IMG/VR virus record: IMGVR_UViG_3300031631_000030
Span: 1 to 21,676 of that record
Source of the DNA: a virus
Direction: 5' to 3' (one strand)
Length of the DNA stretch: 21,676 nucleotides
The notes under the pieces: model-generated
The model's database searches: none
What the model was told of the DNA's origin: nothing
The model's input: only the letters and a program-made list of their open reading frames with translations
Program-made: the position numbers and the translations under genes
Part shown: in pieces, positions 3,727 through 21,590 of the stretch
How positions within the stretch are numbered: the stretch's first letter is position 1
How the letters are laid out: every line of letters starts with the position of its first letter

Positions 3727-4067
3727 TTTACACGTTTCTTCTTTAAGTTACTTTCTAACTTCTCTCTGACTTCAGTTCTCTCTCTAGGCAATTTTCTGCT
3801 ATTCTTTTTAGTTACTTTAGGTTTTGATAGATCTGCAACAAAAGCCTTATGGTCCCCCACAGTTACAATCGGGGTAATGCCTTTCATCAATGCAATATAT
3901 AATATAACGTTAGGATCTGTGTTTCTTCGCAACTCATTCATACATAACTCATCAGGATAATGCATGGGAAACGTGACTATCTCATAAACGTGCTGTCTTT
4001 GTAAATCATTTAACAGTTCGTTACGAATCATAGGATAAACTGGAGCTGGCGTGAAATAGGCTAGCAT
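3723..4067 (-). CDS. Hypothetical protein with basic C-terminus, 114 aa
   Basis: This gene is leftward between terL and the portal gene. Residues 1-80 look globular (mixed alpha/beta, with motifs such as FPMHYPDELCMNELRR). Residues about 82-114 are very rich in Lys and Arg, suggesting nucleic-acid binding. The start is well placed: a leftward TATA (complement of CTATATAAG, 4089-4097) lies about 26 nt upstream. The stop overlaps the next leftward start as ATGA. A forward frame in the same DNA (3718-3960) has no promoter and is judged a shadow. I do not recognise the family. Orientation against the structural operon suggests an accessory or regulatory gene. Confidence 0.7.
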   Translation of the reverse strand: MLAYFTPAPVYPMIRNELLNDLQRQHVYEIVTFPMHYPDELCMNELRRNTDPNVILYIALMKGITPIVTVGDHKAFVADLSKPKVTKKNSRKLPRERTEVREKLESNLKKKRVK

Positions 4068-4101
4068 AACTTCCTATAATGCAACAAACTATATAAGTCT
4101 T
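4068..4101. promoter_or_regulatory. Compact divergent promoter (4067 and 4102 genes)
   Basis: Rightward, AACTTCCTATAAT (4068-4080) is a variant of the shared late motif, with its TATA part about 25 nt before ATG 4102. Leftward, the complement of CTATATAAG (4089-4097) is a strong TATA about 26 nt before ATG 4067. Both fit in 34 bp, so TBP/TFB binding for the two directions should compete. Confidence 0.65.
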
Positions 4102-4458
4102 ATGGTTTTATACATCTCTATGGATCAAAAGACATGGGTACAAGGAGACTTTACAGATAGTGTAACATATGACTTGTCAGGTAAGGTGTATGATGAGAAT
4201 ACATTGGCAACAGCAAGAGACATATCATCCTTTACAGGTACATTACGATTAATAGATCAAGATGGGGAACTTGTATTCACAACTACCGAGAATCTAACAT
4301 TGGGATCAGATGGAACAGTATTAATAAAGTTTGCAAGTGGCAAATCACCTAGATTACAAGGAACATTTAAGGTTAGATTACGATTAGAGGTCAGTGGTTC
4401 CAGATTAACCTGTGTTGGTGTTAATGGATCAGACGAAATATACTTTGAATACGATTAA
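4102..4458 (+). CDS. Beta-rich virion-associated protein, 118 aa
   Basis: The sequence alternates short hydrophobic strands and Gly/Asp/Asn turns (TGTLRLIDQDGELVF, GTFKVRLRLEVSG), as in an Ig-like or BppU N-terminal-like beta-sandwich. A second Met at residue 7 (ATG 4120) is possible, but the late-type promoter at 4068-4080 fits ATG 4102. It lies between terL and portal and is transcribed rightward, so a structural role such as a decoration or small fibre-attachment protein is likely. No enzyme motif is seen and the family is not firmly recognised. Confidence 0.75.
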   Translation: MVLYISMDQKTWVQGDFTDSVTYDLSGKVYDENTLATARDISSFTGTLRLIDQDGELVFTTTENLTLGSDGTVLIKFASGKSPRLQGTFKVRLRLEVSGSRLTCVGVNGSDEIYFEYD

Positions 4459-4472
4459 TTACTTCACTTTAT
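4457..4472 (+). promoter_or_regulatory. Late-motif promoter for portal
   Basis: AATTACTTCACTTTAT keeps the TACTTC core, followed by a TTTAT TATA-like block centred about 27 nt before ATG 4497. It overlaps the stop codon of the preceding gene. Confidence 0.55.
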
Positions 4473-4496
4473 CACAAAACAACTAGAAAAGCACAT

Positions 4497-5948
4497 ATGG
4501 CTAACATATTTAACATAAGAAAGAGTGTTTCTGGCTCAAATGCACCCGTTTTACCTAAAATTAACCCAGTTAAGGAGAAATATGAGGGTTCAATCAGGGT
4601 AATTGAGGCATTTAACCACAAAAGTGAGGTAAATCAGAGTGATTACATGGATGAACTGGCTCCAGATAGACCTTTTGTACAAACTCTTAACGCAATTAAC
4701 CAAGATCCTAGATTAAACTTATCAAATGAAACATATATCCAAATGGTCCTAGGAAAAGGACTTCGAGTATCAGCAAAGAAGGAAAACATAGCCGATATGG
4801 TAACAGATTGGTGGGATGATATCAACTGGGATGAACAACTCGAAGATGCACTATATTCTTACCTAGGATGTGGCAATATGTTCTTTGAACATGATCCGAC
4901 ATTTAAGGAATACATTGAAGTTCCAGTTACAACAATAGAAAGCATTGTAAGAAATAAGAACGGGGATATAAAGTTCTACTTACAACACGTTAATGATATT
5001 GACATCAAACTAAAACCAAGTGAGGTAACACAGTTCAAGCTAACTAACGTATCCAGAGAACCTTTCGGCAGAGGACTACATCATTCTGTCTTATCCAACT
5101 ATACCAATCCAGATACGGGAGAGATATACGACTCTCCACTAATTCAAATGAAAAAGATGGAAGATGCAATGCCAAAGATCTTTGAAGGCCACGCAGATCC
5201 AACTGTAATGTTCCACTTTGCAGATGCAGGCGAACAGTTCATTAAAACACAGGCAGACGCACTTAAGAAGATGAAACATGGATCAAAGATAGTTACGGAT
5301 AAGGAATTTGATGTCAAAGTTATCGAGTCAAGTGGCAACAGCAAGTTCGAAGGTTACATTGAACACATTCAAAGGGATCTATTAGAGCCTGGTTCCAAAT
5401 TCCCACTACAATTCTTCAATGCAGGCTTTACAGCACGAGCATCTAGTGAGTCTACTGACTCTGTATTGACGCGAAAAGTAAAGAGAATTCAGGCACGATT
5501 AGCCAATCAAATCAAGTTAAAAATGGTATTACCATATCTTAAGGCAAGAGGTAAGAACGTTAAGGCCAAAGATATACAAATATTCTTTGAAACTCCTCAA
5601 AAACAAGAGGCAACCATAGCAGATGTCACAACATCATTTAGAGACAACATCATCAGACGTAGTGAGGCAAGACAATGGTTTGTAAACAACTCCAGTGTTG
5701 ACATTAACGAGACTGACATGGCTGACGAACCACCTATCACAAGTGTTACACCTACGGACCAAATGAAAGACACCAGAGTAGGAAAACCCGAGGATACTTC
5801 TATTAATGATAAAGAAGAAACAGTAATAGAACGAGCAATGAATGATCTTAAAAATATGGTAAACATGAGAGAGGAACTGGACAGATCCGACAAGAGAAAG
5901 AACACTACAGAGATCTTAGACTTTATCAAGGAGTTAAAAAATGATTAA
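4497..5948 (+). CDS. Portal protein
   Basis: The portal is the dodecameric ring at one capsid vertex through which DNA enters and to which the neck attaches. The 483-residue product has the usual family pattern: an N-terminal wing, a DALYSYLGCGNMFFE segment (about 116-130) with the conserved aromatic and Gly-rich strand, ESIVRNKNGDIKFYLQ, then FGRGLHHSVL (about 193-202, the position of the common G-x-S/G-x-L portal motif). Long helices follow (about 215-265 and 330-360), and the C-terminus is acidic and helical. Length is normal for siphovirus portals. It has its own late-motif promoter at 4457-4472. Its stop overlaps the next start by 8 nt. Confidence 0.88.
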   Translation: MANIFNIRKSVSGSNAPVLPKINPVKEKYEGSIRVIEAFNHKSEVNQSDYMDELAPDRPFVQTLNAINQDPRLNLSNETYIQMVLGKGLRVSAKKENIADMVTDWWDDINWDEQLEDALYSYLGCGNMFFEHDPTFKEYIEVPVTTIESIVRNKNGDIKFYLQHVNDIDIKLKPSEVTQFKLTNVSREPFGRGLHHSVLSNYTNPDTGEIYDSPLIQMKKMEDAMPKIFEGHADPTVMFHFADAGEQFIKTQADALKKMKHGSKIVTDKEFDVKVIESSGNSKFEGYIEHIQRDLLEPGSKFPLQFFNAGFTARASSESTDSVLTRKVKRIQARLANQIKLKMVLPYLKARGKNVKAKDIQIFFETPQKQEATIADVTTSFRDNIIRRSEARQWFVNNSSVDINETDMADEPPITSVTPTDQMKDTRVGKPEDTSINDKEETVIERAMNDLKNMVNMREELDRSDKRKNTTEILDFIKELKND

Positions 5949-6637: not shown

Positions 6638-6652
6638 AATACTTCTCTATAT
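6638..6652 (+). promoter_or_regulatory. Late-motif promoter for protease-capsid gene
   Basis: AATACTTCTCTATAT matches the consensus fully. Its CTATAT end is centred about 25.5 nt before ATG 6674, and the motif begins 36 nt before it. Position and sequence are nearly identical to the copies before 12384, 14474 and 20829. Confidence 0.8.
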
Positions 6653-6673: not shown

Positions 6674-8518
6674 ATGGCTAAACGAATAGCAGGTATAGCA
6701 TTAATGCCAAGAGAATCAAGAAACGGCATATATTATGATACAGAAGAATTAAAGAAATTTGATGGGGTTCAAGTACCACTACGAGTAGAACATGGTGGAC
6801 CTGAAACTAATATCGGTACAGTTCTATTCACTTATGATGTAGAGAAATCTCAAGTAAGATATGAAGCAGAAGTAGAGAATGAGGAATGGCAAAACAAATT
6901 AGACAATGAACAGTATCAAGTATCTATAGGAGCATCAGTATTAGAACAAAGAGAACTATGCGATGAACAAAGAGAGAAATGTTTAAACTCACCAATACTT
7001 AAAGATATACTAGAATTAAGTTTAGTTAAAACACCTGGGATACCAGAGTCAACATTAGCAGTTATTGAGGATTTTCATATTCTATACGAAGAGGACCAAG
7101 CACCTATGACAGTACAAACTCCGACACTTATATCACCTGTAGTTCAAGATAATACTTCCAATATAGAAATACCTACGGAGATACAACATATGACAACCGA
7201 AATTTCTAAAAAAATTGAAGAAAAAGTCAAAGTAACCATCGAAACCGATGGCGAAGTAGAAGTAGGTAAAGCCGAAGCAAACACTGAGGTAGCCCCAGTT
7301 GTCGAAGCACCCGCTCCAGCAACAGCAACCCCAGAAACAACTTCTGAAAAAGTAGCCGAAAGAATCGAGAAATCCAATGCAGATACACTAAAAGCAGTTA
7401 TTGAAACTGTTTCAGATGCATGGAAACCAAAATCTGAAGTAGCAGAATCAACCTCTGACGCAGGTCATGTAGAGGAAGCATTTACTGATGATCAAGCCAC
7501 AGAATTCATGGATAAACTCTTTGAATCTGGGTATAACAAATTGGTACTCGAGAAAGAAGGATGGATTCAAACCCACACAAGCCAAAAACAATCTGGCAAT
7601 GGTGAGGTTCAAGAAGCCGTTTCAACATCAGGAACTATTTCTGGTGTTAAATCAGCTAGCAACATCTCAATTCAATTAGGTGCAAAAACTGCAATTCCTA
7701 TTAGACAGTATGGTCAATTCCAAGCTGTTCCCGTAGGACAAAATACAGCAAGATTCTACAGAATCACTGTACCAGATGCAGGAGCTATTACTGAAAGCCC
7801 AACTACAGATATCACAGCATCAACCCACACCCTAACAAGCATTGATGTCACCTGTTCAATTAGAGGTTGGAGACAAACAGTTGAGAAAGCAGAACTAGAG
7901 GATTATCCTGCAAGTTTCTTAAACGCAATAAGAGAAACCGCAAGATTAGAATCCATTAGAGATGAACACAAACTGATCCTCCAAGACCTAGCTTCAACAG
8001 CACGAGACTTTGGTGGAGTTACTACAGCCCCTTACCACATTGGTGGTTCTGACGGTGTAGCAACAACAGATCCTACCGAAGAAGATGCAGACGGTGAATT
8101 AGACGAGGACGGTCTTACATTTAGTAAGAGATACCTTGAAGAATTAGGTCAAGATACCTCCCCTGGTAACTTGATTGCCTTCATCAGCCCTAGAGCCTTT
8201 GAAGCACTAATTTCCTCAACCTCCCTATCTGAGTACACCCAGATCGGAAACGCTAGTGTCACCAGATTAGGACAAATGGAAAGATTATATGGTATCGACA
8301 TCATTGTCACCAACGAACTTCTATCCGCCAATAACGCATCAAGAAACCTTGTATGTGTTAAAGGTAAAGCATGGGGATTAGCCTCACAAAGAAAGATGGA
8401 AATTGAGTTCCAAAAGAATGTCGCAGGACAATACTGGGATATCGTATGGACTCATAGAATTGGTGTTAATGTAATTGACGCAAACACATACGTTATAGTC
8501 TCTACTGTTAACGCATAG
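6674..8518 (+). CDS. Prohead protease-scaffold-major capsid protein fusion
   Basis: One 614-residue frame joins three head functions. Residues 1-140 resemble HK97-type prohead proteases (peptidase S78/U35): RVEHGG holds the candidate catalytic His40, YQVSIGAS the candidate Ser84, and ELSLVKTPGIPESTLAV (114-130) matches the terminal family motif. Residues about 170-300 are charged and helical with an Ala/Pro/Glu linker, like a scaffold or delta domain. Residues about 305-614 look like an HK97-fold capsid protein (IRGWRQTVEKAELEDYPASF; LIAFISPRAFEAL; IDIIVTNELL; MEIEFQKNVAG). Cleavage near residues 300-330 would be expected. Codon choice shifts towards GAA and C-ending codons after about 7190, which hints at higher expression of the capsid part. 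An internal promoter may make that part separately. Confidence 0.88.
   Translation: MAKRIAGIALMPRESRNGIYYDTEELKKFDGVQVPLRVEHGGPETNIGTVLFTYDVEKSQVRYEAEVENEEWQNKLDNEQYQVSIGASVLEQRELCDEQREKCLNSPILKDILELSLVKTPGIPESTLAVIEDFHILYEEDQAPMTVQTPTLISPVVQDNTSNIEIPTEIQHMTTEISKKIEEKVKVTIETDGEVEVGKAEANTEVAPVVEAPAPATATPETTSEKVAERIEKSNADTLKAVIETVSDAWKPKSEVAESTSDAGHVEEAFTDDQATEFMDKLFESGYNKLVLEKEGWIQTHTSQKQSGNGEVQEAVSTSGTISGVKSASNISIQLGAKTAIPIRQYGQFQAVPVGQNTARFYRITVPDAGAITESPTTDITASTHTLTSIDVTCSIRGWRQTVEKAELEDYPASFLNAIRETARLESIRDEHKLILQDLASTARDFGGVTTAPYHIGGSDGVATTDPTEEDADGELDEDGLTFSKRYLEELGQDTSPGNLIAFISPRAFEALISSTSLSEYTQIGNASVTRLGQMERLYGIDIIVTNELLSANNASRNLVCVKGKAWGLASQRKMEIEFQKNVAGQYWDIVWTHRIGVNVIDANTYVIVSTVNA
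7151..7166 (+). promoter_or_regulatory. Internal late-motif promoter within the protease-capsid gene
   Basis: AATACTTCCAATATAG carries the full AATACTTC core and an AATATA TATA block centred about 27 nt before the in-frame ATG 7190 (Met173). The spacing matches that of the portal promoter (TACTTC 37 nt before ATG in both). Confidence 0.55.
7190..8518 (+). CDS. Nested scaffold-major capsid protein (alternative start)
   Basis: Starting at ATG 7190 in the same frame gives a 442-residue scaffold plus capsid protein without protease. Support comes from the late-motif promoter at 7151-7166, and from a boundary at this Met: the protease motifs end about 40 residues earlier and a Lys/Glu-rich helical scaffold begins (TTEISKKIEEKVKV). 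It would solve the stoichiometry problem, since capsids need hundreds of shell subunits but few proteases. It is comparable in logic to the nested C/Nu3 genes of phage lambda. There is no direct proof of separate expression. Confidence 0.5.
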   Translation: MTTEISKKIEEKVKVTIETDGEVEVGKAEANTEVAPVVEAPAPATATPETTSEKVAERIEKSNADTLKAVIETVSDAWKPKSEVAESTSDAGHVEEAFTDDQATEFMDKLFESGYNKLVLEKEGWIQTHTSQKQSGNGEVQEAVSTSGTISGVKSASNISIQLGAKTAIPIRQYGQFQAVPVGQNTARFYRITVPDAGAITESPTTDITASTHTLTSIDVTCSIRGWRQTVEKAELEDYPASFLNAIRETARLESIRDEHKLILQDLASTARDFGGVTTAPYHIGGSDGVATTDPTEEDADGELDEDGLTFSKRYLEELGQDTSPGNLIAFISPRAFEALISSTSLSEYTQIGNASVTRLGQMERLYGIDIIVTNELLSANNASRNLVCVKGKAWGLASQRKMEIEFQKNVAGQYWDIVWTHRIGVNVIDANTYVIVSTVNA

Positions 8519-8524
8519 AACTAT

Positions 8525-8549
8525 ATCTTTTTTTATTTTTTTTATTTTA
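8525..8549 (+). terminator. T-rich terminator after the capsid gene
   Basis: A nearly pure T tract (T7, A, T8, A, T4) begins a few bases after the capsid stop. Such tracts end transcription in archaea without needing a hairpin. It would separate capsid transcription from the signal-peptide gene. Confidence 0.7.
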
Positions 8550-8557
8550 GCAGTACG

Positions 8558-9591: not shown

Positions 9592-9606
9592 AATACTTCT
9601 AATACC
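9592..9606 (+). promoter_or_regulatory. Late-motif promoter for the XhlA-like gene
   Basis: AATACTTCTAATACC keeps the core and begins 36 nt before ATG 9628, as in the consensus promoters. A second TATA (CTTTATATA) ends on ATG 9628 itself and could instead serve ATG 9646. Confidence 0.55.
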
Positions 9607-9627: not shown

Positions 9628-9867
9628 ATGGTCCCTGATAGTGAGATGCACGATGCACTACTAGTCAGTATACATAGACTGTCTGATAAGGTAGACTCAA
9701 CTTATGATAAAATTGATGAACGTATGGATAAATTAGAAAAGGAACTAACACGAATAGACACTGAGCGTAAGACATCTAGTGTTATATCATCAAAGTCATG
9801 GAGTCGTGTATTTGGAATTATAGGAGCATTAGGTGTACTAATAGCAATATACTATACATCTATGTAG
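9628..9867 (+). CDS. XhlA-like coiled-coil protein with C-terminal membrane anchor, 79 aa
   Basis: Residues about 10-47 form an amphipathic coiled coil (DKVDSTYDKIDERMDKLEKE). A transmembrane helix near 58-76 (VFGIIGALGVLIAIYYTSM) then ends the protein. This is the architecture of the XhlA/haemolysin family found beside phage holins. An internal in-frame ATG at 9646 is the other start candidate. It sits just before a holin-like small gene, supporting a role in membrane disruption or virus exit, although the envelope of an archaeal host differs from that of bacteria. It might instead be a membrane-linked scaffold. Confidence 0.75.
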   Translation: MVPDSEMHDALLVSIHRLSDKVDSTYDKIDERMDKLEKELTRIDTERKTSSVISSKSWSRVFGIIGALGVLIAIYYTSM

Positions 9868-11466: not shown

Positions 11467-11504
11467 AATTACTTCTTGTACAAGATGTCTATATAAACAT
11501 TATT
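11467..11504. promoter_or_regulatory. Compact divergent promoter (11466 and 11505 genes)
   Basis: Rightward, AATTACTTCTTGTACAAG (11467-11484) contains the TACTTC core 35 nt before ATG 11505. Leftward, the complement of TATATAAA (11490-11497) is a strong TATA about 27 nt before ATG 11466. The TTGTAC palindrome TTGTACAA sits where the rightward TATA box should be. Confidence 0.6.
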
Positions 11505-11834
11505 ATGACCAAGTATGGATCAACTGACGAGATAGAGAAACTAGCCTGGGGAGGAACAAAATCAGCAGGAACTCCAGCAACAGTAACTACCATACGTAAC
11601 ACAGTAACAGATCTTATCAATCTTATATTAAACAGAAATACTGATTTTACAACTGTACCTACAGCAATAGATAGCATCGCTAATTTAACAGGCTCCGAGA
11701 TCCTTAGAAATATAGGTAAAAGGACAGAACTATCTACAGTACAGATATACGATCAGTTAGCAGTATTACTCAAAAACTACATGGACCAAGCACCTCAAGA
11801 TCAATCCCGATGGGGTAACGTGTGGTATACTTGA
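11505..11834 (+). CDS. Probable head-tail connector (neck) protein, 109 aa
   Basis: The protein is mostly helical (TTIRNTVTDLINLILN, VPTAIDSIANLTGSEIL, TVQIYDQLAVLLKNYM). Size and helix pattern resemble connector or adaptor proteins that bind below the portal. It follows the accessory block and starts the neck-tail block, before a tail-terminator-like gene and the tail tube. Its stop overlaps the next gene. Assignment is by position and general character; no diagnostic motif exists. Confidence 0.6.
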   Translation: MTKYGSTDEIEKLAWGGTKSAGTPATVTTIRNTVTDLINLILNRNTDFTTVPTAIDSIANLTGSEILRNIGKRTELSTVQIYDQLAVLLKNYMDQAPQDQSRWGNVWYT

Positions 11835-12349: not shown

Positions 12350-12362
12350 TACTTCTCTATAA
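12348..12362 (+). promoter_or_regulatory. Late-motif promoter for tail tube gene
   Basis: AATACTTCTCTATAA is nearly consensus, begins 36 nt before ATG 12384 and overlaps the preceding TAA stop. Confidence 0.8.
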
Positions 12363-12383: not shown

Positions 12384-13316
12384 ATGGTAGTTTCAGCACA
12401 CAACGTTACAACTAAAAGAGATATAGTAAAAGAATTACAATTCGTTACAGAAGGAGATTCTGTTAGCAATGCAGCATTATACGGTGTTACACCAAGCTCT
12501 TCAACCTTTGCACTAGTTGGAAACAACAGTGAGATTAATATTCAGCCAGATGTACAACATATGGATGTCTCAGTATTAGGATCCGAGGATGTCATTGAAG
12601 CAGTTAAGACACAATCATTATATGCATTTACAATTAGAAATAACCCTGTAGATTTAACACTATGGAAATATCTGTGGAATTCAAGTGGAACAGGAGCAAC
12701 TAGTCCAGACAGTTCAATATCATTTACATATTCTTTTAACTTAAACGGTACAGAATACTTTCAACATATTAGAGGAGCAAGACCAACATCAGGAACTCTA
12801 TCTGTATCAAGAGGTATGTGGGATCAAAATATGACCTTTATCGCAAAAGATATTACAGTTCCAACTACATCAACAGGAGATCCAGGAACACCTGTATATC
12901 AATCAGCAGAAACAGCATCAGCACCAATCGTACATAGTGACGGTGGAGCAGATCCATTCACATATAACTCTATTGCATACGGTGAGAGATCATTTAGTAC
13001 AACAGTAAATAGAAATATGGCAGTAATGGCAGTCAACGGTGAAACTGATATCACTTATACTAAAGCAACTGACAGATCTATTACATTTACAGCAGATGTA
13101 TTTGCAGGAACAGCAAGTAGTGAGACAGCATTATACACACTATACGAATCTAAAGACGCAGATGCAGCAAGTTACAAATTCAATTCATCAGGACCAATCA
13201 CATTAACATATGCAAACTCTGTTATCACAGACTATAGTTACACTCACGCAGCAGGATCATCAGATGCATTAATTGAGTCTATCACTTGCAGAGCAGAATC
13301 AGTTACAAACTTATAG
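12384..13316 (+). CDS. Major tail tube protein
   Basis: This is a 310-residue beta-rich protein. The N-terminus (VVSAHNVTTKRDIVKELQFVTEGD) leads into strand-loop segments such as SEINIQPDVQHMDVSVLGSE, RGARPTSGTLSVSRGMWDQ and RSITFTADVFAG, then a C-terminal half with ISFTYSFNLNG-like strands. These fit tube-forming proteins that stack as hexamers in long non-contractile tails. A strong late promoter upstream fits the large amounts needed, and the chaperone and tape measure follow in normal order. A Ser/Thr/Gly-rich inserted segment (about 165-195) may be a surface loop. No sheath gene is found next to it. Confidence 0.78.
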   Translation: MVVSAHNVTTKRDIVKELQFVTEGDSVSNAALYGVTPSSSTFALVGNNSEINIQPDVQHMDVSVLGSEDVIEAVKTQSLYAFTIRNNPVDLTLWKYLWNSSGTGATSPDSSISFTYSFNLNGTEYFQHIRGARPTSGTLSVSRGMWDQNMTFIAKDITVPTTSTGDPGTPVYQSAETASAPIVHSDGGADPFTYNSIAYGERSFSTTVNRNMAVMAVNGETDITYTKATDRSITFTADVFAGTASSETALYTLYESKDADAASYKFNSSGPITLTYANSVITDYSYTHAAGSSDALIESITCRAESVTNL

Positions 13317-14439: not shown

Positions 14440-14452
14440 TACTTCTCTATAT
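14438..14452 (+). promoter_or_regulatory. Late-motif promoter for tape measure gene
   Basis: AATACTTCTCTATAT is a full consensus copy, starting 36 nt before ATG 14474 and overlapping the TAA of the preceding gene. Confidence 0.8.
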
Positions 14453-14473: not shown

Positions 14474-17400
14474 ATGGCTAGGGATAATGTAACATTTAAG
14501 TTTAATATAGACTTAACCCAAATGACTGTAAAAGGTCGTCAGGCTGTAAAGGTACTAGATGAGATACAAAGAGCATCAGGTAATGCATCATCAGGAATGA
14601 CCAGATTAGGAAATGTATCAAGAGGAGCAGGAGAACAAACAGCAGCCGCAGCACAAAACTTCCAGACAGCAACTCAAGGTATGCTCAACTTATCAACTGC
14701 CGCAGTACAGACTTTTACATCCATATCTAACTTGGACCGAGCAGGTAATAGATTAGCACAATCTCAAATAGCAGTAGCAAGAGCAACTGACTTGATGAAT
14801 AATAAAGAATTAAGATTAAACACTATAAGAGAACAAGGGTTAGGAAACACAAGACAAGCAACAAACTTAACTAATGAATTAAAAACTGCTAGAGCAGATC
14901 TATTAGTAAAGACAGATAAATTGAAAATAGAGGAGGGTGCATTATTTGATATTCAATTACTATTTATAACAAACATAGCAAACGTTATGATTTCATCCAT
15001 TCAGACTATAGTAAGTTTAAAGCACGCAAATGTAGGAGCAACCATTAAACTCATAGTTCAAGAGAGATTATTAGCAACTACAATGTTTACAAAAACTGTT
15101 CCAGCATTTGGTGCAGCAACATTAGAAATGGGACTTATGAACGGAATGACAAAACAAGTAATCAATACTAATCGATTATTAATGGTAGGAATCCCTGTAA
15201 TTGGTACAGCTATTATAGCAGTTTCATTAGCAATACAAGCATATACTGAAAACTGGGGTGGTTTTAGAGATATGATACAGACCATATTACCATTCATGAA
15301 AGATCAGAAAGCGTTATTAAATGATGTGAATAATGTATTAGGTGAAGTTACAGAATCACAAGATGGGTTTAATAAATCATTAGAAAGTGAATCTAAATTA
15401 TTATTTGATTTACCAAAGAGTTTGAAATTGACAGCAGAAGGTCTTGCTAAAATAAATAAAGAATATGGTGGAGATAAAGTTATTAGTATGAAGGCGTTTA
15501 ATGACGAAATAGAGAGAACTGGAAGATTAGCAGCAGACACAGGTCAACTTTTTCCTAACGCCTCCTCTAATGGAGGCTCCGCAAAAACAGCAAACTCAAT
15601 AAATGTAATTCCTCATGAGGGAGACACTACATCCACACCTTCAGCAATTAATAATAACTCATTGTCAGCACAAATAGGAAATCCTGATCGTTCATCTGTT
15701 TTACAGAGTTTTGGATATGCTCCTTCAGATCAAAAACAAGAATCACAAATTGCTAGATCGGCTTTCCCTGGTATGACTTTAAGTATTGTAGGAGGAGGAC
15801 CAAGTTTTTCACAGGGTGAACCTCAACCAGTACCCGCACCTACATTAGAAAGTAGAATGTATAATTCTCAACAATCTAAAGATGAGAGGTTACTTTCATT
15901 TATTTCAGAAGAGATTATTCAAGCAGGAACAAAGGGATTATATTTGATGGGGCAAAACATAAGTGATGAGTTATTCAAAGATAGAATGATAAAAGATGCA
16001 GAAGGTCAAGTTACAACAGAAATAGCCCCACCAACAGCAGGAAGATCATTAGGTATGGGAATAGAATCTTTCTTACAATATCATTCTGAGAAAAGTAAAC
16101 AAAGATTAGCAAAAAGAGCATTAGATCAAGAACTTAAAGATGCTAAACATAGAGGGTTTAATACTATAGAGGAAATGCGTAATTTTAATAATGAAAGTCG
16201 TCTTGATCAAATACCAATTAATACATTTAAGCGTACATTAACTCCAGACAACCTTAAAATATTTGAGAACTTAGAGAAAGCATATCCTAATCAAAAGAAT
16301 CTTGCAGAATTAAAATCATTATATAATACTATGATACCAAAGGTAGAGCCTGGAGATCCATATTTTAAAGGTGGTAGAGGTATGAGTGCAGTTTCAGGTC
16401 AAGGTATTTTCTTTGGAACAAAACAATATGAATTTATAAAAGGACAATTACAAGATAAAAATAGTCAATTATATGAAGATTATAATGCTGCCGAAATAAA
16501 GGAATTTGAACAAATGGTTTGGAATACAGAAAATACTGCATTAGGAGCAGCACAAAGATTAACAGAAGACAGTATATTAAAATCTATAGATCCTAGAATA
16601 GTATTACAAGAAGATCAAGAACAATACTTTAAGGATTTAGCAATCGAAAAGAGTAAGGAGGATGCACGAATACTTAATGAAGCATTGATAGAAGCAGCCA
16701 AACAGACTGAATTATCAAGAGTAAAAGAAATAGCAACTTCATTAGGATATGATGATAAAGGTGAATTAAACGTAAGTGTTAAGGATATAATGCGAAGAGA
16801 AAAATTAGGTGGAGGTAGATGGGCAATGGTAGATGGAGTTTTAAAAAGAGTTGGAGTGGGAATAGGAGGTGATATATTAAGACATAAGCAAGCACTTACA
16901 GATGAACAGATGAATACATTAAAAGGATATGGTGGTATAGTAAACATGGGAACTATGAAATCTTATGATACTACAATAGGTGATTGGTGGAAGAATGATA
17001 ACCCTGATAGAATATACACACCAGAGAAAGCATTAGATGCAATGAAGATTAGAAGTAGATTAGAAGAAGGAAATCTAGAATCATTTGTAGGTAGTGATGG
17101 TAGGATGATTGGTGGTCTTCCAACTGATACTGTACATGATCAAATAGTAAAAGAGACATACATGAATAAATATTCTCCTGACGGTACTATGTATAACAGT
17201 CAAGGTATAAATAAGGGTAAGATTTATAATACTAAAGAACTTAATACAAGATTTAAAGCCGAAGCCTTAGCAGAAAAATATAAAGCACAAAAGACACGAA
17301 ATGATAAAACATTAGCAGATAATAGAAGACGTAATAACATTAAAGATGCTAATACAAACAGATTAAGACAGGGAGGAACTAGAGTAGAGGAAATACCTAT

Positions 17401-17983: not shown

Positions 17984-19686
17984 CCTCCCTAACACCAAAC
18001 TATAACCCGAACCAATTAAACCCTAGAATAGTGATAACTAATTTAACAGGAGGTTCAGCATATACGTTTGAATCATCCCAATTATCAGCAACACCTACAC
18101 AAGACTTTAAGTTAGAAGCATTAAAATTCCATCTTGGTATAGATGATGATTTTGGTTTCCTTCAACTAGTTATTCACGATCATGATAATAAATTAACTGA
18201 TTTAACAGATAGCGATAGACCTGGAGTAATAGGTAGAGAATGGGGAATACAACTATTCTTAGGTAAGACATTGGCACTAGAAGAAAGATGGTTCTATGGA
18301 AAGATTAAGGACCTTGCAGTATCTAGACCTACAACAGGAATACAAACCATATCACTTACATGTGTAGGATGGGGAATCATATTAAGGGAGAGAATGACCA
18401 GACTTGTAAGAAATCAAGCAAAGGCAGCAGACGGTGTTACTCTAGATGATGCAGACGATTCAACAAAGATATCAGAATTAATCTTAGATTTGTTTAATGA
18501 TAAGGACCACCAGATAGATGATAATATGCCACAAATATCAAACATCATAGCACAAACAAGTACCACAGGTAACGGTATAGATGAGGCAGCAACCAGCGGA
18601 AAGATAGCCAACGTTAACTTTACAGTAGCATCATATGCACAAGTCATATCAAACTTGGCAGGTATCGCAAATACCACATGGCATATTAACCCAGATAGAG
18701 CATTGGTAGTACAAGATCCAGCATCTATAGATTCAGGATTCTTATTTACAAATAACTTGGGAAATACTAAAGCAACTACATGGGATGCTAACAAGATAGG
18801 ATATGTATTAAACGCACCATTAGAGTGGAAGGATTCTAGTGCTGACATGCTATACAACTTTGTACATGGATTTGGACACTTTGCTCCAGGTGTATCAGTA
18901 AGTGAAACCACAGCACCAGATGCCGCAGACAATTTAGATTCTGAATTACATGCAATACCATTTATACCAACATCAGATAACGTGGTAAAGATAGCAGTAA
19001 GGTCAATCAAAACTGGAACCCCTGTGGCAGGATCTATAAAGATATTGGGAGGAACAACAGGAGGTGGACCAGATCCAGCAGATATACGATATACCAAAGC
19101 ACTTAACGCATCATTGTTAAGCAAGTTAGGAGTTGTTACACCTGCAACATGGTTAGAAGTACCTATCACACCTAGACTTCAGGTTATCCCAGGAGAACAG
19201 TTATTTATAGTATTTAGTAGAACAGGAAATGCAATAAATACCATATCAGTTAACTATACATCAGGAAGCGGTGTATTTTGGGATAGTACAGATGGAATCA
19301 CATGGACAAGTAGAGTAGGTAAATCAAGTTACAGAGTATATGAGTCTAGAAAACTAGTTACCACAGTTGAGAACGTATCAGCATCAGAGTTCTTATCTGA
19401 ACCTAGAGAGAGAATATTTCCTATAAGGGCTGACCTTGAAGAACAAACTGTGAGGGCAACACTAATAGCAGCATCAGAAGTATTGGGTAAACAAAGAAGA
19501 ACCTATGGAACTGTAATAGTATCCCCTACAACAAGTAGAATACCATTGGGAACATATTGTACACTTGAAGATGGTAAGACAGGACTATCAGTTAAGGCAA
19601 ACATTACAAGTGTAGATCTAAGTGCAGGATCAGATGATCTAGGTGTACAAAGAATATCATTAACATTGGATGGCTATCACAGATGA
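17980..19686 (+). CDS. Tail hub / distal tail protein, 568 aa
   Basis: It follows the tape measure with an ATGA overlap, in the place of distal tail or hub proteins (gp27/Tal type). The N-terminal half reads as two beta-barrel-like parts: FKLEALKFHLGIDDDFGF and LQLVIHDHDNKLTD, then WGIQLFLGK, RWFYGKIKDLAV and IQTISLTCVGWGIIL, a pattern common in hub proteins where strands build a ring. A middle segment (about 270-460) carries a beta-sandwich of virion type (VKIAVRSIKTGTPVAGSIKILG), and the C-terminal part (RIPLGTYCTLEDGKTGLSVKANITSVDLS) matches the closing barrel. No protease or glycosidase site is seen. Long antisense frames here are shadows. Confidence 0.75.
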   Translation: MTSLTPNYNPNQLNPRIVITNLTGGSAYTFESSQLSATPTQDFKLEALKFHLGIDDDFGFLQLVIHDHDNKLTDLTDSDRPGVIGREWGIQLFLGKTLALEERWFYGKIKDLAVSRPTTGIQTISLTCVGWGIILRERMTRLVRNQAKAADGVTLDDADDSTKISELILDLFNDKDHQIDDNMPQISNIIAQTSTTGNGIDEAATSGKIANVNFTVASYAQVISNLAGIANTTWHINPDRALVVQDPASIDSGFLFTNNLGNTKATTWDANKIGYVLNAPLEWKDSSADMLYNFVHGFGHFAPGVSVSETTAPDAADNLDSELHAIPFIPTSDNVVKIAVRSIKTGTPVAGSIKILGGTTGGGPDPADIRYTKALNASLLSKLGVVTPATWLEVPITPRLQVIPGEQLFIVFSRTGNAINTISVNYTSGSGVFWDSTDGITWTSRVGKSSYRVYESRKLVTTVENVSASEFLSEPRERIFPIRADLEEQTVRATLIAASEVLGKQRRTYGTVIVSPTTSRIPLGTYCTLEDGKTGLSVKANITSVDLSAGSDDLGVQRISLTLDGYHR

Positions 19687-20792
19687 GTGACGTATCTAGT
19701 TTCATTAGACGAGGTCAGTCTGATACTGAGACTATAAACAAATTACAAGCCTTAATCACACCATTAGCATTTCCTGATCCTGAAGCAGACTCTTTAAAGG
19801 AACGTGTAATATTAGCCAGTCCAAAGAGACTACGAACATTAACTCATGCGGAAGGATTGGATATCACGACAAGCACAACATCAACACGAGACAGATTATC
19901 AAATACATATACTATTACACCTGATACAGCATCACCTGTGTCATATCCTGTAACAAATGTAACCACAGGAACAATAACCTTTGGAGAATCTTCAATAATA
20001 AAGGGAGGATGTGGAGCATTATTTGATGGATCACAGTACATAACTATACCAGATAACTCTACATTGGAATCAGAACCACCTATAGGATTAATGTTTACAT
20101 TTAAATCAAGCGGAACAGGTGGTTCACAAGCAATATATTGTAAGAAGAATGAAGCAATAGGAGCAGATTTTTATGAGTATAATTTCAATGCTACAGACTT
20201 TGACAGGTCTACAACAGGAATTCAAGCAGGCATATATGTAGAGGTACTTAAAAATGATACACCAGACTTTGACCAAGTATCATCAGATTTTAATTTAACA
20301 GACTTTAACTCAACCACACAAGTATCAGCAGTAAGGGTTCATATAGCAGATGGAACTAACGAGGTAGACTTTATACAGGCTTCAACTGTAGATTTATTTG
20401 ATGGAAATGTACATAGCATAGCAATAAACATATCAAATGCATCAGCAGACTTTGATTCTAACGACTTTAACGCAACTGACTTTGACTTTGGTACTAATAA
20501 AACTATTGAAATATGGGTTGATAAAGTATCAAGAGGATCAACTTCAACAGCAAGTATAACGGGATCACTATTAAATTCTAGATCAGCATACTTTGGAGGT
20601 AGAGATGTATCAGGATCAATAGACTCTAAATTACGAGGATATGTAGCATTATTTGAGGTCCAGAATGGTCTATTCTCACAGTCTCAAATAAACTCATATC
20701 ATGATGATGATAGACTGTCCGTTACGAACCAGCTAAATGCCATTCATTTCTGTGGAGATGAATCTACAAGTGTATTGGATTCAGTGTTCTAA
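19683..20792 (+). CDS. LamG/concanavalin-like tail fibre protein with ADFxx insertions
   Basis: The start overlaps the hub stop (ATGA). Residues about 110-360 resemble a LamG/concanavalin-A-like jelly roll: ALFDGSQYITIPDNSTLES, LMFTFKSSG, DGNVHSIAINIS, KTIEIWVDKVSRGS, AYFGGRDV and KLRGYVALFEVQNGLFSQSQI follow the classic strand order of these sugar-binding domains. Two inserts hold five-residue units of the type (A/T/S/N)DFxx, such as ADFDSNDFNATDF (about 258-270) and SDFNLTDFNS. The N-terminal 100 residues are likely the attachment part. A receptor-binding or fibre role is probable. Confidence 0.75.
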   Translation: MSDVSSFIRRGQSDTETINKLQALITPLAFPDPEADSLKERVILASPKRLRTLTHAEGLDITTSTTSTRDRLSNTYTITPDTASPVSYPVTNVTTGTITFGESSIIKGGCGALFDGSQYITIPDNSTLESEPPIGLMFTFKSSGTGGSQAIYCKKNEAIGADFYEYNFNATDFDRSTTGIQAGIYVEVLKNDTPDFDQVSSDFNLTDFNSTTQVSAVRVHIADGTNEVDFIQASTVDLFDGNVHSIAINISNASADFDSNDFNATDFDFGTNKTIEIWVDKVSRGSTSTASITGSLLNSRSAYFGGRDVSGSIDSKLRGYVALFEVQNGLFSQSQINSYHDDDRLSVTNQLNAIHFCGDESTSVLDSVF

Positions 20793-20806
20793 ATACTTCT
20801 CTATAT
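20792..20806 (+). promoter_or_regulatory. Late-motif promoter for the gene at 20829
   Basis: AATACTTCTCTATAT is a full consensus copy, starting 37 nt before ATG 20829 and overlapping the TAA stop of the fibre gene. Confidence 0.8.
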
Positions 20807-20828: not shown

Positions 20829-21590
20829 ATGACTTTTGAAACTATTACAGGAGCCGTAGCAACTACATCAACTGTAGTAGGCGGAGAACTTACCAATAAA
20901 TATTCTAATCTATTAAACGGAGGAGGTAGTGAAGTAGCAACTGTATACGATGATGATATATTTATCGTAGATCCAGCAGATTCAAGTAAACGAATTAGAT
21001 TAAACGCAGATTCAATATCTACAAGTACAGATGTTGTATGTAGTGTAAAGTCAGATAGTGCAGTTAATCTGGGATGTGTTGGAACTCACGAGATTTATAT
21101 ACCAGCAGGAGCAATGTATACAGTTACAACAAATGGAGCAGACTATGCAACAAGAGAACTAGCAACTAACGATATTATGATTTCATCATTTGCATTTGAT
21201 ACTACAACAGCACAAAAGACACAATTCAACTGGGCAACACCTGCCAACTGGAACGCAGGAACTATTAAATTTAAATTATATTGGACCACAACAGGTGGAT
21301 CAAGTACACAAACAGTAGACTTTGATTTGGCTGGAGTTGGATTCGCTAATGATAATCCAATGGATACAGCAGTAGGAACACCACAAAACGCAACAGATAC
21401 ATGGATAGCAGATGATGATTTACACGTTTCAGCATACTCCTCTGCAATTACAATAGCAGGTTCCCCAGCAGCAGGAGAGTTGGTAGTATTCCAATTAAGC
21501 AGAGATGTGGCAGCAGATAATTTGGGGGTAGATGCAGAGGTTGTAGGAGTATTAATTGAATATTCTACAGACGCATCTAATTCAAGTTAG
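20829..21590 (+). CDS. Tail or virion structural protein of a type common in marine viruses, 253 aa
   Basis: The C-terminal 140 residues follow a pattern I associate with structural proteins of many environmental phages: FNWATPANWNAGTIKFKLYW, then VDFDLAGVGFANDNPMDTA, GTPQNATDTWIADDDLHVSA, ITIAGSPAAGELVVFQLSRD and VDAEVVGVLIEYSTDA. This reads as a beta-sandwich, often located near fibres or on capsids. The N-terminal half is a Thr/Ser-rich beta domain. It has its own full late promoter, implying abundant product. Family assignment is from memory of the motif pattern, not a search. Confidence 0.7.
   Translation: MTFETITGAVATTSTVVGGELTNKYSNLLNGGGSEVATVYDDDIFIVDPADSSKRIRLNADSISTSTDVVCSVKSDSAVNLGCVGTHEIYIPAGAMYTVTTNGADYATRELATNDIMISSFAFDTTTAQKTQFNWATPANWNAGTIKFKLYWTTTGGSSTQTVDFDLAGVGFANDNPMDTAVGTPQNATDTWIADDDLHVSAYSSAITIAGSPAAGELVVFQLSRDVAADNLGVDAEVVGVLIEYSTDASNSS

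Follow-up and report, generated by a model that had tools for sequence, protein, structure and literature searches.

The fused protease-scaffold-capsid gene

The DNA analyzed here, which we call the window, is the whole of the viral record IMGVR_UViG_3300031631_000030 from IMG/VR (21,676 bases, 36% G+C), and its genes run in the order terminase, portal, protease-scaffold-capsid fusion, and tail genes. We are concerned with the fusion gene, an open reading frame (ORF) of 614 amino acids (6674..8518; this and the other features written with two dots are on the plus strand) that is a single uninterrupted ORF in every relative. Inside it lies a candidate promoter element, AATACTTCCAATATA (7151..7165, with the core TACTTC at 7153-7158), and after the element comes an in-frame ATG at 7190..7192, which is codon 173 of the 614 (Met173). 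A frame starting there begins after the protease domain and shares its stop codon with the fusion, and it would constitute a nested gene (7190..8518) for a protease-free chain of 442 amino acids, made of the scaffold (delta domain) and the major capsid protein. An earlier note on this DNA interpreted the arrangement as an internal promoter with a nested start, and the sequence comparisons presented here support that interpretation.

The putative protease domain (approximately residues 1-132, 6674..7069) is modeled with a pLDDT (predicted local distance difference test) of 80, and the top eight fold matches of this model in the PDB are all herpesvirus proteases (best E-value 7.5e-3, probability 0.75-1.00, template modeling score about 0.4-0.5). 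These matches are weak singly but consistent together. As a side observation, the domain model is closer to herpesvirus assemblins than to any other solved fold. H40 and S84, which are invariant in the domain, may be catalytic, and the motif ELSxV..PGIP is invariant as well; no protease family was matched in Pfam (prohead protease included) or in NCBIfam. In its C-terminal part, the fusion resembles phage major head proteins (PHROG 267, E-value 1.7e-6) and solved major capsid proteins (5tjt_A, E-value 5.6e-8), and by profile this domain classifies as an HK97-fold major capsid protein.

Both models fold the first ~120 residues into a domain. Between the two parts, disorder is predicted for residues 121-223, and residues 224-249 (7343..7420) form a predicted scaffold or delta-domain helix in a low-confidence model. 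The AlphaFold model of the whole fusion (pLDDT 41) is too poor to be read beyond the protease, the linker and this helix. Met173 had been placed by the earlier note at the protease/scaffold boundary. It does fall between the protease and the scaffold helix, but within a disordered linker, where there is no sharp domain edge.

TACTTC as a candidate promoter

We count 8 instances of the pattern TACTTC-N28-31-ATG in the window, always on the plus strand, where 1.24 are expected, and none of 100 shuffled sequences reaches 8. Seven of the occurrences precede separate genes: the portal gene (TACTTC at 4460..4465, 37 nucleotides before ATG 4497), the full-length fusion (a late-type element TACTTCTCTATA at 6640..6651, 34 nucleotides before ATG 6674), the gene starting at 9628 (9594..9599, 34 nucleotides), the one at 11505 (11470..11475, 35 nucleotides), the tail-tube gene at 12384 (12350..12355, 34 nucleotides), a tape-measure-like gene at 14474 (14440..14445, 34 nucleotides), and the gene at 20829 (20794..20799, 35 nucleotides). 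The eighth is internal to the fusion. The pairing of motif and in-frame ATG proposed by the earlier note holds. One more plus-strand TACTTC, at 5795, has no ATG at promoter spacing.

For promoter positions, as well as for codon usage and Shine-Dalgarno motifs, we pooled 23 relatives thinned at 90% nucleotide identity. In this pool, 84 of 114 intergenic TACTTC sites sit 34-37 nucleotides upstream of a gene start; as a control, minus-strand TACTTC sites have an ATG at 33-38 nucleotides in 5 of 142 cases. The consensus from the relatives is (A/T)(A/T)TACTTCT(A/C/T)T(A/T)TAT. Spacings are mostly 34-35 nucleotides, with 37 a minority. The claim that the internal spacing is that of separate genes stands, with a small correction: the 37 nucleotides from 7153 to 7190 match the portal (4460 to 4497), but 37 is not the usual value. 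Among 1260 other internal in-frame ATGs, just one, which is a mis-called gene start, outscores the median internal site as a promoter.

On this evidence, TACTTC is a late-promoter candidate in viruses that probably infect ammonia-oxidising archaea. A search of six related records, some being fragments, for a virus-encoded TFB that might read the motif gave no match to PF00382. Separately, a sequence close to the promoter word (TAACTTCCTATAAT) lies in 4060-4101, ahead of the gene at 4102 and at about promoter distance from it.

Conservation among marine relatives

The conservation set consists of 64 distinct marine sequences spanning the internal site, window included, with relatives 56-98% identical; it was drawn from searches of viral contigs, which returned many related loci. 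An internal ACTTC followed by an in-frame ATG is present in 64 of 64, and the spacing is exactly 34 nucleotides (42 sequences) or exactly 37 (22). At the start of the full-length fusion, ACTTC is found 34-36 nucleotides upstream in 63 of the 64. The internal site is kept while the linker that flanks it is hypervariable in length and composition. In the group L207-L217 (about 57% identical overall) the linker is unrelated in sequence and the site is retained, and in L049 the Met is shifted by one codon with the spacing between motif and ATG preserved. The earlier note had said that it would be refuted by related viruses in which the amino acids are unchanged but the motif is gone, and no such case is seen, even where the neighboring residues differ. 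With conservation in all 64 sequences and 8 sites in the window against 1.24 expected, we reject coincidence.

A promoter left behind by history is another matter. If the protease and capsid genes had once been separate and were fused by loss of a stop codon, the former promoter of the capsid gene could persist without function, and this is a plausible origin for the fusion, since thaumarchaeal proviruses show both separate and fused forms (PMC6563490). But a functionless motif is unlikely to stay intact in lineages as divergent as ~57% identity with replaced linkers; it would not track the promoter word of another virus, as we describe below for the provirus Nvie-Pro1, and codon adaptation would not be expected to step at the join, as it still does. 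We regard a fossil promoter as hardly credible. We found no relatives with split genes within this group for a direct promoter comparison; in L083, at 22% identity, the protease-scaffold gene and the capsid gene are separate, but this sequence is too distant for that purpose. Three sequences (L025-L027) resemble protease-less capsid genes in tblastn, which matches them only from residue 155 or 172, but reading them showed full fusions. A scan of the collection with AATACTTCTCTATAT returned relatives mixed with matches in unrelated contigs, and its result was not used.

The conservation extends to the choice of codons. We ranked the columns among the 45 before Met173 in which the amino acid is conserved and at least four-fold degenerate, using pairs below 80% nucleotide identity. 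Thr161 (ACT, 100%) and Ser162 (TCC, 90%) are the top two, against a mean of 52%, and TCC otherwise accounts for ~6% of the Ser codons in that region. The codon preceding Thr161 alternates between Asn and Ile, with its final T mostly kept. On this codon-level evidence, the internal element is under selection as DNA.

The residues themselves offer a different explanation, in which the conserved Thr-Ser-Asn is a protein feature, for instance a site of self-cleavage by the protease, the motif is a by-product, and there is no nested chain. Thr161 and Ser162 are indeed invariant in the marine set, and the linker following the protease domain is a plausible place for self-cleavage. Yet the codons are invariant beyond what the residues alone call for, and neither the fixed 34- or 37-nucleotide spacing to the ATG nor the codon usage step described below is accounted for. 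With the evidence from Nvie-Pro1 added, where the residues at the element are Leu-Ser-Ser-Leu and the promoter word is its own, we consider a protein feature very unlikely.

As for the linker, most relatives carry an extra ~50-70 residues (SFGGFLDxxRLxxE...) between the protease and the internal Met (for example, L026 6082-6330). This insert is absent from the window (7060-7150) and from several other clades, and L207-L217 (L209) have unrelated inserts.

A different promoter word at the same place in Nvie-Pro1

No annotated phage record other than Nvie-Pro1 (FR725450), a soil provirus of Nitrososphaera, resembles the window in its fusion or portal. For this reason, the host of the window virus is likely thaumarchaeal, and the group is probably one of tailed viruses of ammonia-oxidising archaea. 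One contig with a viral fusion 72% identical to ours (L084, JAERTG010000021.1) is filed under a Neomarinimicrobiota metagenome-assembled genome, where it is probably mis-binned, a different host being also conceivable.

Like the window, Nvie-Pro1 has a fused protease and major capsid protein, homologous to the window fusion at ~30% identity, and the same internal arrangement of promoter word and ATG. Unlike the window, its promoter word is TAGTTCT, which occurs in 11 copies 34-38 nucleotides before a start codon, where 0.35 are expected, including those of the portal (35 nucleotides), the fusion (34) and the major tail protein (35). The internal copy, TAGTTCTCTTA, is at 7402 within the fusion, 37 nucleotides before the in-frame ATG at 7439, which is Met171. 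There is no TACTTC at promoter spacing in Nvie-Pro1, and no forward TAGTTCT site in the window. Thus, the internal element follows each virus's own promoter word, because TACTTC in one and TAGTTCT in the other also lead the viruses' own genes. The comparison of homologous fusions that the earlier note had called for therefore yields a motif and a Met at the equivalent place. This co-variation with the promoter word is, among the sequence comparisons, the strongest single argument for a promoter over a protein feature.

In the same record (our loci L033 and L194), the candidate promoter word TAGTTCTCTT is seen at 7402-7441 and genome-wide, 34-38 nucleotides before about ten starts. These include start-like codons after 10812 and 15667 that lack annotation as gene starts. 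A search for viral contigs resembling Nvie-Pro1 found none.

Codon usage and translation signals

A change of codon choice after Met173 had been noticed by the earlier note, and it is confirmed both in the window and in the pool. In the window alone the breakpoint of synonymous usage is at residue 175, and none of 200 synonymous shuffles reaches it; in the pooled relatives the breakpoint is at residues 165-173, with a log-likelihood ratio of 515, the highest value among 60 column permutations being 179. Before the step, 59% of Ile codons are ATA, 20% of Phe codons TTC and 12% of Tyr codons TAC; after it, the shares are 7%, 55% and 46%, respectively. Placed on a codon scale that the two fusion halves define, the scaffold-capsid half is unlike any other gene in the window, the tail tube being nearest, and the protease half is among the lowest and resembles most other genes. 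By its codons, then, the scaffold-capsid half reads like a highly expressed gene and the protease half like an ordinary one. Such a step would be unexpected if the full-length chain were the only product, since its two halves would then be read to the same extent.

A Shine-Dalgarno-like motif is found before 28 of 69 tight operon genes, as against 5 of 86 genes led by TACTTC and 1 of 23 internal Mets. This pattern suggests short-leader or leaderless transcripts for the genes that TACTTC leads, with the internal one among them.

Ribosomes initiating at Met173 of the long mRNA, in the manner of lambda C/Nu3 and with no second promoter, would also give this nested protein and this codon step, and a Met173 that is conserved and in frame suits that mechanism. 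What argues against internal ribosome entry is the scarcity of Shine-Dalgarno motifs before the internal Met, compared with the tight operon genes. Moreover, internal initiation gives no reason why ACTTC is invariant at promoter spacing, or why TACTTC and TAGTTCT co-vary. We find it improbable.

Two proposed nested transcription units

We propose that the fusion gene consists of two nested in-frame transcription units with one common stop codon, and, from the comparisons above, we put the probability of this reading at roughly 0.86. The promoter at 6640 would give the whole protease-scaffold-capsid chain. The promoter of the same type at 7153, inside the coding sequence, would give a short-leader or leaderless mRNA from near 7190, and translation from Met173 would produce the 442-residue protease-free scaffold-capsid chain in excess over the fusion. 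Shells would then be mixed, many of their subunits being plain capsid and few bearing a protease domain, and the protease would mature the shell from inside. The element, its spacing, its conservation as DNA, its change with the promoter word and the codon step can all be read in the sequences; it is from these that we infer the starts of transcription and translation near 7190, the excess of the short form, and the role in assembly.

Several points weigh against this proposal. The promoter role of TACTTC is itself deduced from position. The internal element matches the full consensus less well than the intergenic ones do (median position-specific scoring matrix score 10.2 vs. 19.3), having CAATATA or CAATAAA where the promoter set has the T/A-rich extension TCTATAT. 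A weaker promoter is a poor fit with an excess of the short product. Coding constraint could explain the weaker match, which nonetheless tells against high expression, except if the T/A-rich extension is of little importance. Three of the 64 sequences have CACTTC as the hexamer, and the other 61 have TACTTC. With its amino acids fixed, a lineage would have the motif by chance with a probability of 8-39%, and so this test is moderate taken alone; the product over 15 divergent lineages is ~2e-10 if they are independent, and independence is only partial. All of these sequences are related, and counts over them are not independent. Finally, Nvie-Pro1 has a codon step at residue 174 (reached in 2 of 200 shuffles) whose direction differs from that of the window, which is why we count it as suggestive only.

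Going one step further, we think it likely, with somewhat less assurance, that archaeal tailed viruses have in this gene within a gene an ancient device, in which two promoters on one frame supply a fusion and an excess of scaffold-capsid chain, and which has been retained ever since marine viruses split from those of soil, although its promoter sequence has changed. How can a shell be built when every capsid subunit bears a protease? A conserved internal promoter would be a simple answer, and, if true, it would explain shell assembly in viruses with fused protease-capsid genes.

Relation to known nested genes

In herpesviruses, UL26.5 lies within UL26, with an internal promoter inside the capsid protease gene (PMC10284419), and the in-frame, 3′-coterminal nested gene of UL26/UL26.5 (UL80/UL80.5) produces a protease-free scaffold (PMC10284419, PMC12474303). 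The window fusion is alike in its in-frame nested start after the protease, its shared stop and its candidate internal promoter. It differs in that UL26.5 encodes scaffold only, the major capsid protein having a separate gene, whereas the proposed nested product here is scaffold plus major capsid protein. The host domain and the type of promoter differ as well; the likeness we draw is one of function. The window gene would thus work like UL26.5 and is not a member of that class, for its nested frame runs through an HK97-type capsid domain. If the proposal is true, it would be an archaeal counterpart of UL26/UL26.5 that reaches one step further, to the capsid protein. It would also parallel the herpesvirus nested gene in function, within a lineage that has the capsid fold, and apparently the protease fold, in common with herpesviruses.

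In phage lambda, the Nu3 scaffold comes from an internal translation start on the same mRNA as the protease C, and the capsid protein is separate. It is the translational counterpart of the product we propose to be made from a promoter. The overlapping nested scaffold product of the lambda protease gene is attributed to Shaw and Murialdo (1980), as cited in PMC8508860. The proposed nested product also has the layout of the HK97 delta-domain capsid protein; unlike in the window, the HK97 protease is a separate gene, hence a nested start is unnecessary there.

The fusions of Nvie-Pro1 and NCAV2-Pro1 have been published without a nested product, and with promoters unmentioned (PMC6563490). The NCAV2-Pro1 fusion contains a typical prohead protease (PMC6563490), and in CalSub-Pro the genes are split. 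Internal promoters in herpesvirus capsid protease genes are already known. For a nested start in a protease-capsid fusion, we found no earlier description in a literature search that had most subscription journals, the first Nvie-Pro1 paper included, outside its reach.

Other features of the window

Directly after the fusion stop, a poly-T tract (8527..8554), as read from the sequence, is a possible transcription terminator. Further downstream, repeated DFN/DFD-rich motifs (SDFNLTDFNSTT, SDFDSNDFNATDFDFGTN) at 19683-20792 belong to what is probably a tail or adhesion protein.
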